The notes below the pieces were generated by a model. The model worked only from the letters and a program-made list of their open reading frames with translations. It searched no databases and was not told the DNA's origin. A stretch of DNA of 64,000 bases from a bacterium. Its GTDB lineage: Bacteria > CLD3 > SB21. Shown here piece after piece: positions 58,667-64,000 of this stretch. The position numbers were made by a program, and so were the translations under genes. Where the stretch lies: contig JABWCP010000001.1 in assembly GCA_013360215.1 (NCBI GenBank), positions 281,225 through 345,224 of the forward strand, read 5' to 3'. Numbering within the stretch: position 1 is the stretch's first letter; every line of letters begins with the position of its first letter.

Positions 58667-61522
58667 ATGGCTTTCGATAAAGCGTTTGAATCCGTAAACC
58701 GTCTCGTGCAGGATTTTCGTGCGCAAGAAGCGTATTATCTCGACGCCAAATATCAGGAGCAGGAAGCGCGTAAGGATTTCATTGACAAATTTTGGATCGC
58801 TCTCGGGTGGGATGTCAATCATGAGATTCAAAAAAATCCGTACGAACAGGAAGTGCGCATCGAAAATGCCGTTCGCACCGGTGCTTCGCAGCGGCGCGCC
58901 GATTACGGTTTTTATCTCTCCCCCAATTTCCGCGACCCCAAGTTTTTCGTAGAGGCCAAAAAACCCTCACGCAGCATCGCCAATCCCGATGATTATTTTC
59001 AAGTCAATCGCTACGGATGGAGCCAGCAAACGCCCGTCGCCGTACTCACGGATTTTGAAGAATTGCATATCATTGACTGCCGATTTAAGCCGCATATCGG
59101 CACGGCACTGGATCGTAAGATCAAAGCCTTTCGTTATACCGACTATACCGATGCCGAAAAATTTGCCGAAATCTACTGGTTATTTAGCCGCGAGGCCGTC
59201 GCCACCGGATCACTGGAAAAGTACGCTGCCGCACTACCCCGCCCCAAAGGCAAAGCCGCACAAAAAGGTCTTTTCAAAGCGGGTGTACAGCCTATTGACG
59301 AAGCCTTTCTTGAGGAATTGGACGAATACCGCGTCATCTTGGCCAAAGCCTTCAAAAAATCCAATCCCGATCTTGAAGGCGAAGCGCTCACCGAAGCCGT
59401 GCAACGGACCATAGACCGTCTGGTGTTCATACGATTTCTGGAAGACAAATCCATCGAAGACTATGAAGTGCGACACTACGGCGACAGCGGTCATGCATGG
59501 AAAAAGTTTCTCGCCCACTGTCAACGGCTGGAGCCCAAATACAACGGCCTTGTATTCAAACCGCATCCCGTAATTGACGGCCGTGCGTTTCATGCACCGG
59601 ATGAAGAAGACTTCAAGGCGATTTGCGCCAAACTTTCCGATCCCCATGCCGTGTACGACTTTGATCAGATCCCTATCGCTATTCTCGGTAGTATCTACGA
59701 ACGCTTTCTCGGTAAAGTCGTCCACACGACCGCCAAACGCGCCGTCGTCGAAGAAAAACCTGAAGTGCGCAAAGCCGGCGGCGTGTACTATACGCCGGAG
59801 TATATCGTGCGCTACATCGTACAAAATACCGTAGGCAAACTGATCGAAGGCAAAACGCCGGAAAGCATCGCCAAAATGGCTTTTGCGGACATCGCATGCG
59901 GGTCAGGTTCGTTTTTGATCGAAGTCTATAGCGAACTGCTCGCCTACCACGAAAAATACTATCTGGATCATCCCGAAGCCGCCAAAGCCGGCGATACGCA
60001 GCTGCGCGACGGACGGATCGTACTCTCTCTCAAAAAACGTCAGGAAATTCTCAACAACAATATCTACGGCGTAGATATTGACTTCCAGGCGACAGAGGTC
60101 ACGCAGCTCTCGCTGTATCTGAAACTGCTCGAAGATGCGACGCGCAACGACGCCTATCAGTACGGCATGCTCAAAGAAAAAGTCCTGCCCGATCTCAAAA
60201 AAAACATCGTCTGCGGCAATTCGCTGATCGGCACCGATATACTCGAAGGCGATTTATTTGAACGCACCGAAGAAAAAAAACTTAAACCCATGGACTTTGA
60301 ATCCGCATTTCCCGAAATCATGAAACGCGGCGGATTCGATGCGATTGTTGGAAATCCTCCTTATGGCGCTGTATTTGCTGAAGTCGAAAAAAAATACATT
60401 CAAAACTTATATAAGTCATATAAATACAAATTCGACAGTTATATTTATTTCATTGAGAAGGGCATTACGTTAATTAAACAAGGAGGCTTTTTAGGATACA
60501 TTACGCCTGAGTTATGGCTTCATCTTGAGAATTGTGCTCCATTAAGAAAATTTGTTACAGAAACAATTAGTGTGGATAGAATAAAAATATGCGGTGAAAA
60601 TGTATTTTCTCAAGCTGTAGTAAATACAGTAGTACCTATATTTTCTAAAGTAAGAAAAAGTAAAAAAATACTGATTGAAAGAGAAGAAGATACTTGGGAA
60701 ATTGATTCCGACGGAATTGATTCGAATAATAATTACGTTTTTAATTATCGGTTAAAACCATTAGAAAGCCATCTAATTCTTAAAATAAAAGAAAAGCGCG
60801 CTACTGATTTAGCATCTCTTGGAGACGCAATTCAAGGGATAACGCCCTATGATCGATATGCAGGTCAAGATACAGATATAATTAAAAATCGAGCTTATCA
60901 CTTTAAAACTAAAAAAGATAAGTTTTGCGAGAAATGGATTGATGGGCAAGATGTTTCTCGGTACGCGTTAGGTTGGAGCGGAGAATGGTTAAGATACGGA
61001 AAATGGTTAGCTGCACCCCGCGATCCGAAATTTTTTAACGGTAAACGGTTATTATTTAGAGAGGTTCCAGGACAACAAAAAAGAATTCAAGCTACTCTGG
61101 CGCTTGAGACCCTTTACCATGGACATAGTATTACTCCCTTTAAATTATTTGATGAAACAAAATATGACCACTGTTACATTCTTGGCATAACAAATTCTAA
61201 ATTGCTAAGTTGGTATGGTGGCTTGATTCTACCAAATTTTGGAAAAAATATTTTTCCAAAACTTAACCCACAAGACATCAAAACACTCCCCATCCGCACC
61301 ATCAACTTCTCCGATCCCTCGGACAAATCACGTCATGATCATATCGTGAAATTGGTCGAGCAAATGCTTTCCGCGAAAGAAAAACTCGCTTCGGCCAAGC
61401 TCGAATCTGAGCGCGACCGGCTGGAGATGATGTGTGAAGCGCTGGACCGCCAGATAGACGACGCCGTCTATCAGCTTTACGGCCTGACGGAGGAAGAAAT
61501 CAAGATCGTAGAGGGAAAGTGA
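58667..61522 (+). CDS. Type IIG (Eco57I-like) restriction-modification enzyme
   Basis: 951 residues joining nuclease, methylase and specificity parts. N-terminal PD-(D/E)XK site: D79, then E96-A-K98. Methylase motif I is ADIACGSGSF (about 405-415) and motif IV NPPY at 563-566, an adenine-N6 type. Residues about 565-868 form the specificity region, and a coiled tail follows. From just after NPPY (about 60365) to about 61270 the DNA turns AT-rich: the line at 60601-60660 is 16/60 GC, against 34/60 at 59221-59280 and 34/60 at 61381-61440. This is the mark of an exchanged target-recognition module. Confidence 0.92.
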   Translation: MAFDKAFESVNRLVQDFRAQEAYYLDAKYQEQEARKDFIDKFWIALGWDVNHEIQKNPYEQEVRIENAVRTGASQRRADYGFYLSPNFRDPKFFVEAKKPSRSIANPDDYFQVNRYGWSQQTPVAVLTDFEELHIIDCRFKPHIGTALDRKIKAFRYTDYTDAEKFAEIYWLFSREAVATGSLEKYAAALPRPKGKAAQKGLFKAGVQPIDEAFLEELDEYRVILAKAFKKSNPDLEGEALTEAVQRTIDRLVFIRFLEDKSIEDYEVRHYGDSGHAWKKFLAHCQRLEPKYNGLVFKPHPVIDGRAFHAPDEEDFKAICAKLSDPHAVYDFDQIPIAILGSIYERFLGKVVHTTAKRAVVEEKPEVRKAGGVYYTPEYIVRYIVQNTVGKLIEGKTPESIAKMAFADIACGSGSFLIEVYSELLAYHEKYYLDHPEAAKAGDTQLRDGRIVLSLKKRQEILNNNIYGVDIDFQATEVTQLSLYLKLLEDATRNDAYQYGMLKEKVLPDLKKNIVCGNSLIGTDILEGDLFERTEEKKLKPMDFESAFPEIMKRGGFDAIVGNPPYGAVFAEVEKKYIQNLYKSYKYKFDSYIYFIEKGITLIKQGGFLGYITPELWLHLENCAPLRKFVTETISVDRIKICGENVFSQAVVNTVVPIFSKVRKSKKILIEREEDTWEIDSDGIDSNNNYVFNYRLKPLESHLILKIKEKRATDLASLGDAIQGITPYDRYAGQDTDIIKNRAYHFKTKKDKFCEKWIDGQDVSRYALGWSGEWLRYGKWLAAPRDPKFFNGKRLLFREVPGQQKRIQATLALETLYHGHSITPFKLFDETKYDHCYILGITNSKLLSWYGGLILPNFGKNIFPKLNPQDIKTLPIRTINFSDPSDKSRHDHIVKLVEQMLSAKEKLASAKLESERDRLEMMCEALDRQIDDAVYQLYGLTEEEIKIVEGK

Positions 61523-61531
61523 TCGCGTGCC

Positions 61532-62287
61532 ATGGCGTCAGACATGCCAATCAAATATTTTTTGTTTTTGGATGAATCCGGCGATCATGGTTTAGGAAAT
61601 ATTGATTATAGCTTTCCTGTGTTCGTTCTTTGCGGAGTCCTCATATCGGATAACGCCTATCAAAACATGGGCTCTCATATTTTAAAATTGAAAAAATATT
61701 TTTGGAATGATAAAAAAGTCATTTTCCACTCACGTGATATTCGTAAGTGCGAAGGTGAATTCAGTCTCTTTTTTGATCTATCGTTAAAAGAGGAATTTTA
61801 TAGACAGCTCAATGCGATTCTGATGGACAGCGATTATACTGTTATCTCCTCCGCCATTGAAAAAAACAATTTTTTAAAACAATATGGTAAACTGAGTAAT
61901 GACGTATACGAAATCGCGCTTTCGTTTATTGTTGAGCGTGCTGTGTTTTTCCTCGACGCAATACATCAACCGATTAAACTTCATGTTATCATCGAACGCC
62001 GTGGACGTCTCGAAGATAAAAAATTGGAAGAACACTTCCAGCGGCTGTGTGCAAACGGAACCTATTATGTCAACGCAGATAGGCTAAAGCAGTATGGTCT
62101 TGAGATCAGCTTCAAAAATAAGAAAGACGATATCCAAGGATTGCAGGTGGCTGATCTTGTGGCATATCCTACGGCCCGATATGTGATTGATCCAAATAGG
62201 GCAAACCCTGCATTTGACATCATCAAAGAGAAAATATATAAGAATAAGAAGAACAATAAGCTTTTCGGTTTAAAAATATTTCCATAA
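61532..62287 (+). CDS. DUF3800 protein
   Basis: 251 residues. FLDESGDHG opening and DIQGLQVADLVAYPTARY near the end hold the conserved acidic residues of DUF3800, a presumed RNase H-like fold common next to restriction systems and mobile elements. It starts 10 bases after the R-M gene and ends at a strong terminator, so the pair is one unit. ATG 61544 is an alternative start. Role unproven. Confidence 0.85.
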   Translation: MASDMPIKYFLFLDESGDHGLGNIDYSFPVFVLCGVLISDNAYQNMGSHILKLKKYFWNDKKVIFHSRDIRKCEGEFSLFFDLSLKEEFYRQLNAILMDSDYTVISSAIEKNNFLKQYGKLSNDVYEIALSFIVERAVFFLDAIHQPIKLHVIIERRGRLEDKKLEEHFQRLCANGTYYVNADRLKQYGLEISFKNKKDDIQGLQVADLVAYPTARYVIDPNRANPAFDIIKEKIYKNKKNNKLFGLKIFP

Positions 62288-62289
62288 GC

Positions 62290-62315
62290 AAAAAGCCCAG
62301 CAAGCTGGGCTTTTT
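62290..62315 (+). terminator. Strong terminator closing the R-M/DUF3800 unit
   Basis: AAAAAGCCCAGC / GCTGGGCTTTTT is a perfect 12-base inverted repeat separated by AA, three bases after the DUF3800 stop, with T5 on the plus strand. The A5 side lets it work on the other strand too. Confidence 0.93.
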
Positions 62316-62382
62316 ACCGACCGGGGACACCCCAATCCATTTCAAAGTTTTTCATACCGATCAGGAAAACCCCAATCGATTG
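62315..62382. repeat. Two imperfect direct repeats
   Basis: A unit starting TACCGA and containing CCCCAATC occurs at about 62315-62342 and again at 62355-62382, 40 bases apart, with several mismatches. The first copy includes GGGGACACCCC. Possibly a remnant of a mobile element end or a small repeat family. Confidence 0.45.
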
Positions 62383-62669
62383 GAACTGTACTAGTTCATA
62401 CATATCAATATAGTGTATGAATTGGAAACAACCAAATGAATTCTATATAAAATTCGGTCAAAATTTGAATGAAAATCATTCAAAATACCTATTACTTTAA
62501 TCATATGATTGAATCGGATGATTTTAAATTAATAAGGTAACCCAAAGAAGAGACTTTGGAAATATACGAATGCGGTATCTACTAATACCTCAGTTAAACA
62601 CTTGAAAATAAAATGTTTGATTCGTGATTGAAAAGCCTTGATTATATCTGTAAAAAACTTTACTTATAA
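62383..62669. promoter_or_regulatory. AT-rich palindromic region before the toxin-antitoxin-chaperone set
   Basis: No gene. It contains the perfect inverted repeat TTTGAATGA-AAA-TCATTCAAA (62464-62484) and the perfect palindrome AATCATATGATT (62499-62510). Both could be operators for the XRE antitoxin. They lie 160-205 bases before the first gene, farther than usual, so this is tentative. Confidence 0.45.
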
Positions 62670-63137
62670 GTGAATCCAAAGTATAAAATAGAATTATTAG
62701 CCGAAGGCCCAAAAGCACATATCTACACAATTCGCAACTTGGACTCTGAAATATCAGAGTTTGAAAGATTTGCTGATGAAGAAGATGTACGTTATGATCC
62801 CGGTTTTCAGGAAATATTAGCACGCATTGATGATATGGCCAATCGTCTTGGGTGCATTGACTCTTTTTTTCGTAATGAAAGCACACGTGACAATGCGATT
62901 TGTGCACTTTTTGCACCCGACGGAAAATTACGATTATATTGTATCAAAATGCGTTTTACTCTTCTGATCATAGGAGGCGGTGGCATAAAAAACACACGAA
63001 CCTATCAAGAGGATCCTCATTTGGATTCGTGCGTTACATTACTTGAAGACTTTTGGAAGCGTTTTGCACTATACGAGGACAACGGAGAGATAGAAATTAG
63101 CTCCGACGGAAAAATCACAGGAAAGGATAAGATATAG
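62670..63137 (+). CDS. Candidate RelE/HigB-like toxin
   Basis: 155 residues from GTG 62670 with no clear ribosome site. KAHIYTIRNL opens it; the core RDNAICALFAPDGKLRLYCI, then LLIIGGGGIKNTRTYQEDP, has the beta-strand pattern of small RelE/ParE-type toxins of a poorly described subgroup. It is followed 2 bases later by an XRE antitoxin gene, the toxin-first order of HigBA. Toxicity is inferred from shape and context only. Confidence 0.65.
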   Translation: MNPKYKIELLAEGPKAHIYTIRNLDSEISEFERFADEEDVRYDPGFQEILARIDDMANRLGCIDSFFRNESTRDNAICALFAPDGKLRLYCIKMRFTLLIIGGGGIKNTRTYQEDPHLDSCVTLLEDFWKRFALYEDNGEIEISSDGKITGKDKI

Positions 63138-63139
63138 AT

Positions 63140-63565
63140 ATGAGTTCTGTAAAAAATAAATTTCAGGAGCTTTTGAAACAGGTTCCCGATGAAGTGAAGC
63201 TCTATGTGCAAATGCAGGGAGATATAGCCATCCGCGTAGGCGAAATAATCAAAGAAAAACAATGGACTCAAAAGAGTCTGGCCGAAAAAATGGGATGGAA
63301 CGAGTCCCAAGTAACGCGCCTTTTGGCCGGACATGAAAATTTGACGCTAAAGACGATTGCCAAACTATCGGTCGTTTTGGAAGAGAATTTGATACAAACG
63401 CAACCAAGGGTCGTGTACATTCCCCTTTTCCCGTTGGATACACCGGCCAATGCGGCACTAAATCTTGGCGCCCTTCGCGCCGCATCATCCGTAGGCAATT
63501 TTTTTCCTCTTTCAACCAATAAAGTAACCAGTTTTATCAAAACAGAAGCCAAAGCGGTAGCCTAA
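63140..63565 (+). CDS. XRE/HigA-like antitoxin with C-terminal extension
   Basis: 141 residues. Helix-turn-helix at about 35-80 (KQWTQKSLAEKMGWNESQV, then TRLLAGHENLTLKTIAKL). The last 45 or so residues are not part of a standard HTH domain and end in a hydrophobic patch (GNFFPLSTNKVTSFI). In TAC systems the antitoxin has such a tail, which its SecB-like chaperone binds. Next gene starts 2 bases on. Confidence 0.78.
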   Translation: MSSVKNKFQELLKQVPDEVKLYVQMQGDIAIRVGEIIKEKQWTQKSLAEKMGWNESQVTRLLAGHENLTLKTIAKLSVVLEENLIQTQPRVVYIPLFPLDTPANAALNLGALRAASSVGNFFPLSTNKVTSFIKTEAKAVA

Positions 63566-63567
63566 TT

Positions 63568-64000
63568 ATGTCTGACTCTATCGAACAAGGTTTGGGACCA
63601 AGTTTCAAACTGACCGGTTTTGTTATAGATTCTTTTTCTTTGGAAAACGAAGCGCGCCACGTAGAAAATATAGACGCCGACATGTTGCTTTACCATCACC
63701 AAGGAAATGCAGAAATCATACCGCCCAAAAAACTTATCCGAATCAAACTTTCGGTAACGGCGGAGTATGAAGGGAAAACATTAGGAAAAATCGTGACGCA
63801 AACAGAATTTGAAATCATCAATTTTGAAATTTTCATCAACAACGAAATTTTAAATATCCCAGGAGAGCTCATGTCTATGCTCGTCGGGTTGGCATACTCT
63901 ACTACGCGTGGCGCACTTATCGCAAAAAGCGAAGGTACGGTTTTAGCAAAATTTCCCATGCCGGTTGTTTCGCCCTCTCGTCTCATCGGCATTGCACCGA
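63568..64000 (+). CDS. SecB-like chaperone (3' end outside window)
   Basis: 144 residues visible, no stop before the window end. The order of beta strands and the C-terminal half, MSMLVGLAYSTTRGALIAKS with the following FPMPVVSPSRL, matches the SecB layout in which a helix (AYxxxRG) precedes a proline-containing strand and loop. Immediately follows the antitoxin gene, as SecB-like chaperones do in TAC operons. The call rests on pattern, not strong identity. Confidence 0.6.
   Translation, partial: MSDSIEQGLGPSFKLTGFVIDSFSLENEARHVENIDADMLLYHHQGNAEIIPPKKLIRIKLSVTAEYEGKTLGKIVTQTEFEIINFEIFINNEILNIPGELMSMLVGLAYSTTRGALIAKSEGTVLAKFPMPVVSPSRLIGIAP

Follow-up and report, generated by a model that had tools for sequence, protein, structure and literature searches.

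The 3' end of the window, that is, the whole stretch of 64,000 nucleotides that was analysed, carries three genes that probably form a toxin-antitoxin-chaperone (TAC) operon, in which a toxin with a RelE/HigB fold is controlled by a helix-turn-helix (HTH) antitoxin whose C-terminal tail would make it dependent on a SecB-like chaperone, and in which the release of the toxin would most likely be triggered by phage and lead to abortive infection; we give this reading a probability of about 0.8. It is directly supported by the gene order, the HTH of the second protein (ORF2), the folds predicted for the first and the third (ORF1 and ORF3), the positions of the invariant residues of the toxin, and the association between the length of the antitoxin tail and the presence of the chaperone. 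The preliminary description had already suggested a probable TAC operon, and the present analysis supports that reading, with a function predicted from sequences and structural models. The TACs are chaperone-gated toxin systems able to sense phage structural proteins, and few toxin families have been characterised in them.

The operon and its 5' region comprise the following features:

62290..62315, no strand assigned: perfect 12-bp inverted repeat with runs of A and T, which separates the DUF3800 gene from the operon.
62316..62669, + strand: leader, AT-rich (31% GC, 46% across most of the window), with several small inverted repeats.
62464-62484, within the leader: example of one of these inverted repeats, TTTGAATGA...TCATTCAAA.
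62670..63137, + strand: ORF1, toxin candidate, 155 aa, GTG start, PADLOC PDC-M64B (6e-31).
63140..63565, + strand: ORF2, antitoxin candidate, 141 aa, ATG start, PADLOC PDC-M64C (4e-20).
63383..63562, + strand: C-terminal tail of ORF2, residues 82-141, about 60 residues past the HTH, of a length that tracks the chaperone in relatives.
63568..64000, + strand: ORF3, SecB-like chaperone candidate, 144 aa, ATG start, 3' end cut by the contig end, PADLOC PDC-M64C (2e-9).

The three genes had been described as lying two bases apart, and each intergenic gap is indeed of 2 nt. An in-frame TAA lies immediately 5' of the GTG of ORF1, therefore its start cannot be further upstream. At the other side, ORF3 lacks its last few codons because the contig (345,224 bp, with the window at 281225-345224) stops at the window end; its homologues extend about 0-30 residues beyond the cut point. 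The leader is a possible promoter and HTH operator, judging from its composition and repeats, and a sigma-70 scan found no sigma-70-like promoter on its + strand. The 12-bp inverted repeat looks by eye like a terminator-like boundary and is absent from the output of the terminator scan. Directly 5' of the operon there is a type IIG-like restriction-methyltransferase gene (58667-61522), followed after 9 nt by the DUF3800 gene (61532-62287); the two genes and the operon are possibly a small defence cluster.

Relatives were picked with a degenerate DNA pattern that represents the toxin motif R-L-Y-C-x10-G-x-G-x2-K-x5-Q-[DE], which was found in 3 viral and at least 119 genomic stretches. The resulting set of about 120 loci belongs mostly to Bacteroidota, and a sample of 386 genomes from across the domain yielded no relative. 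The preliminary description expected the genes to be conserved together, and the antitoxin gene follows the toxin gene in 119 of 124 loci, that is, in every intact one; among the other five, four are truncated at the stretch end and the fifth, L091 (Streptomyces), matched the pattern by chance. The SecB-like third gene is present in about a quarter of the loci (29 detected by profile and one, L017, by eye, which makes 31 with the window), and the carriers include Bacteroidota, Chlorobiota, Ignavibacteriota, Calditrichota and Balneolota. Given that the order toxin, antitoxin, chaperone recurs in about 30 loci of these five named phyla, the arrangement in the window is not due to chance. The gap between the antitoxin and chaperone genes of the relatives is mostly between -14 and +32 nt, and the same three genes are found in two plasmid loci, in Bacteroides thetaiotaomicron and Hymenobacter swuensis. 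Some relatives have restriction-modification genes as neighbours, and many others have an ordinary chromosomal context, next to housekeeping genes.

Several individual loci deserve a separate mention. In Balneola (L017:6754-7230, - strand, and the next genes) the third gene encodes a different, more SecB-like protein that the family chaperone profile missed, which suggests an independent recruitment of SecB within the same toxin family. In L081 the antitoxin gene is followed after 21 nt by another HTH gene of its family, perhaps as a result of a tandem duplication. Two records titled Staphylococcus (L099) and Pseudoflavonifractor (L119) carry toxins and antitoxins very like those of Bacteroidota, and are probably mislabelled or misbinned metagenome assemblies. 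In the viral contig IMG/VR 2703719087 (L013, 1839-3107) a TAC was observed by eye in the vicinity of capsid-type genes and of a tyrosine recombinase gene; hence, some copies of the family are phage-borne.

For the operon in the window, we infer an RNase activity of ORF1, which would most likely enter the ribosomal A site, cleave mRNA and halt translation, as well as its neutralisation by ORF2, which would bind the toxin and probably repress the operon. The tail of ORF2 would make this protein dependent on ORF3, which would bind the tail and block the aggregation or proteolysis of the antitoxin. Phage sensing would occur when a competing client, most likely a phage structural protein that has just been synthesised, occupies ORF3; the antitoxin would then be lost, and the freed toxin would cause the infected cell to cease protein synthesis, i.e. 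abortive infection. Chaperone addiction through the tail has been established for HigA1, and it can be transferred between systems (PMC5105189, PMC6377645).

The phage trigger is proposed by analogy with other TACs, and a phage role for the operon is supported by its PDC-M64 label, by the restriction-modification neighbours and by the TAC found in the viral contig. It is also possible, with a distinctly lower probability, that the operon is a TAC that serves a stress response or the maintenance of a genetic element (addiction), in which the chaperone would report the general folding or export load instead of a phage. In agreement with such a role, the M. tuberculosis TAC has been described as stress-responsive (PMC4257090, PMC5105189), one relative is on a Bacteroides plasmid, and many are found in ordinary chromosomal settings beside housekeeping genes. 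In contrast, the two TACs tested in one study, CmdTAC and MqsRAC, defend E. coli against phage (PMC9519451), HigBAC also protects E. coli (PMC11980606) and, according to work cited in the latter paper, senses a lambda tail protein; moreover, the trio figures in PADLOC as a candidate defence system, and restriction-modification genes neighbour some of the loci, including the IIG enzyme 5' of the operon.

Regarding the toxin, the preliminary description of ORF1 as RelE-like is borne out by structure and by profile comparison. The AlphaFold2 model, obtained with an alignment of 61 relatives as input (pLDDT 94.2, pTM 0.89), has a predicted BECR (RelE/HigB-like) fold with additions at both termini and a long C-terminal helix. 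The lists of fold matches from Foldseek and VIA-align are both headed mainly by HigB/RelE-type toxins. The top Foldseek matches are HigBA of S. pneumoniae and HigB of E. coli, with weak E-values (0.03 at best); the case for the fold rests on VIA-align, on the consistency of the family and on the profile match. With VIA-align, Z was 10.3 for the S. pneumoniae toxin-antitoxin module HigBA (6af4), 9.4 over 117 residues for HigB1, the toxin of the M. tuberculosis TAC (7awk), and 7.5 for the ribosome-bound RelE (4v7j). The profile of the ORF1 family matched that of Gp49/HigB proteins from other genomes with 89% probability (profile-profile comparison), and the controls reached 1.8% or less in 100 column shuffles and 0.1% against a SecB profile.

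The preliminary description also held that this toxin does not look like the described ones, which stands in the sense that it matches no Pfam or NCBIfam family, but not in the sense of an unrelated protein, given that ORF1 is distantly related to the HigB/Gp49 group, of which HigB1 is a member. Searches of Pfam, NCBIfam and PHROGs with the single sequence gave no match, and those of the PDB gave chance matches only. Neither the window toxin nor the families listed for any of the 62 members included a match to PF05973 above the gathering score, so ORF1 is considered related to HigB/Gp49 and is not filed as a member; a marginal match to an NCBIfam RelE/ParE family was obtained for two family members (E 0.026). 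The ORF1 family is thus an uncharacterised one outside all Pfam toxin families, and no clear non-toxin family claimed it.

In the alignment of 62 toxins the residues R88, Y90, C91, G102, G104, K107 and Q113 are invariant, in part by construction, since the search pattern retains only members that keep the R, Y, C, G, K and Q of the motif; nonetheless, all of them except C91 are also invariant in three proteins found without the pattern. R88 and K107 align with the conserved R and K of the Gp49 toxins in the profile-profile alignment, and they fall at the positions, on beta3 and after beta4, where the conserved basic catalytic residues of the RelE/ParE superfamily lie. They are 19 residues apart, as are R73 and K92 of S. 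pneumoniae HigB, and this spacing is close to that of R77/K95 of HigB1 and R61/R81 of RelE. R77 and K95 of HigB1 are catalytic and have been equated with these residues of RelE and S. pneumoniae HigB (PMC9098466). The correspondence covers two catalytic positions; neither counterparts of R68 and K58 of HigB1 nor a third basic residue were identified in ORF1.

These residues bear on the proposal that ORF1 could have the RelE fold and a different target, as is the case of ParE, which shares the fold and hits DNA gyrase. We consider this unlikely. In its favour, a shared fold is not enough to specify the target, the model is also matched by ParE structures with a lower Z (about 5.5 or less), and the family lies outside the Pfam toxin families; against it, ribosome-dependent RNases match best, and 62 of 62 aligned members have the R...K pair at the RNase catalytic positions, whereas ParE lacks the RNase catalytic residues (PMC11980606).

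The third protein had been described as SecB-like, and its AlphaFold2 model (pLDDT 88.7) indeed has the fold of SecB and Rv1957. The Foldseek E-values were 4.9e-5 for SecB and 3.2e-4 for Rv1957, and VIA-align gave Z 10.3 for E. coli SecB, 10.1 for H. influenzae SecB and 8.8 for Rv1957 with its bound antitoxin peptide (5mtw). At the sequence level the relationship is distant, with an identity to SecB of only about 10-15%, and single-sequence searches of Pfam, NCBIfam and PHROGs gave no match for ORF3. The family profile matched SecB with 81-85% probability. In a first column-shuffle control of this profile a spurious match of 99% appeared, which was put down to gap-rich columns, and once these were removed the shuffles gave 1.1% or less. 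In a search of the PDB with the chaperone profile, SecB ranked first (E 0.08). The Pfam SecB family (PF02556) was matched by 1 of 27 chaperone members (E 0.05) and not by ORF3, which in the lack of a match above the gathering score is termed SecB-like only. No solitary SecB was detectable with Pfam in the host genome, and a solitary SecB is usually missing in TAC carriers outside Proteobacteria (PMC4257090).

Among the three proteins, ordinary family libraries recognise only the HTH of ORF2, which is of the Cro/C1 (XRE) type and spans residues 35-81 (Pfam HTH_3, 2.4e-7; HTH_26, 2.6e-7). The preliminary description had noted an XRE antitoxin with about 45 extra C-terminal residues, and its tail is in fact about 50 residues longer than the typical tails of chaperone-less antitoxins (19-22 residues from the HTH anchor). 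From the comparison of the relatives, this tail is proposed to be a chaperone-addiction (ChAD-like) region. Tail length, measured as the number of residues past an HTH anchor, ranges from 47 to 104 in the presence of the chaperone (n=31, median 69) and from 19 to 110 in its absence (n=86, median 22), although the longest chaperone-less tail (L012) is in a stretch that ends there, with any third gene out of view. The difference persists in a set thinned to less than 75% toxin identity, with medians of 71 (n=25) vs 30 (n=36; Mann-Whitney p 1.2e-8). Some chaperone-less antitoxins have moderately long tails, of at least 47 residues in 10 of 36, and of at least 60 residues in 2 of 35 when L012 is left out. 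L081, L019, L069 and L092 form a subclade of toxins in which the chaperone is missing, and yet the antitoxin tails are moderately long.

Mapped on the best toxin tree, the presence of the chaperone changes 10 times, through gain or loss, and at least 5 of these changes are forced by well-supported branches. For the independent pairs on well-supported branches (n=5, a number that does not allow p 0.05 to be reached), the tail changed in the same direction in 3.3 and in the opposite direction in 0, and the sister pairs selected by eye show the same direction in 7 of 7. For instance, L076 has a chaperone and a tail of 66 residues and L014 has no chaperone and a tail of 22, and their toxins are 61% and their antitoxin bodies 65% identical; this pair, as well as L125 and L067, whose toxins are 70% identical, is close enough for tail-swap experiments. 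Aromatic residues represent 10.3% of the tails vs 6.0% of the remainder of the antitoxins (p 6e-7), and aromatic-rich tails agree with what is known of SecB clients.

At the level of sequences, the joint change of tail and chaperone is the pattern of chaperone addiction. The least probable of the alternatives is that ORF3 has the SecB fold without being the chaperone of ORF2, and acts, for example, as a co-repressor or as a further inhibitor in direct contact with the toxin. This could be argued from its low identity to SecB and from the predicted nature of chaperone binding, but all antitoxins that come with a chaperone have a long tail, which follows the gain and loss of the chaperone on the tree, and the same arrangement of tail and chaperone is established for Rv1957 and HigA1 (PMC5105189, PMC6377645).

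Returning to the TAC reading, within one toxin family the antitoxin tail and the chaperone come and go together. Laboratory grafting of tails had previously demonstrated chaperone addiction (PMC5105189), and it appears that nature repeated this grafting several times in this family. We consider it an even chance that BECR-fold toxins outside the Pfam families, in five phyla, have repeatedly moved into and out of chaperone addiction by the joint gain or loss of a SecB-like gene and a tail; if true, this repeated switching would be a natural experiment on the evolution of chaperone-sensing phage defence.

The trio is not an undescribed one, since it is already included in PADLOC-DB as the unnamed candidate PDC-M64. 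All three window proteins match the models of this candidate with the values given above, and 62 of 62 toxin relatives match its toxin-side models. In PADLOC it is an uncharacterised phage defence candidate with no mechanism, and it is not named in the literature that was searched. To this, we add the reading as a TAC with a BECR toxin, the finding that the majority of the loci are chaperone-less, an uncharacterised RelE-fold toxin family, a divergent chaperone, and a testable mechanism for PDC-M64. CmdTAC (PD-T4-9), an anti-phage system that senses the capsid protein of T4 (PMC11618068), has the same three-gene layout and a SecB-like chaperone; nonetheless, CmdT is an ADP-ribosyltransferase and CmdA has been described as two helices and a disordered tail, whereas here a RelE fold is predicted for the toxin, and the antitoxin carries an HTH. 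Among the fold matches listed for ORF1 there is no ADP-ribosyltransferase, and the identity with PD-T4-9/CmdTAC was set aside because the toxin fold differs (HigB/RelE). The HigB/Gp49 toxins (PF05973), such as HigB of S. pneumoniae, provide the best fold match of ORF1 and share with it the long C-terminal helix and an equal R-K spacing, in spite of the lack of PF05973 among the families listed for the 62 members. In comparison with HigB1-HigA1-Rv1957 of M. tuberculosis, ORF1 has additional strands at its N- and C-terminus and belongs to no Pfam family, ORF3 is outside Pfam SecB, and the toxin and the chaperone are only 7% and 6% identical in structural alignments; in contrast, both systems share the order of toxin, HTH antitoxin with a C-terminal tail and SecB-like chaperone, and the folds of the toxin and of the chaperone match.
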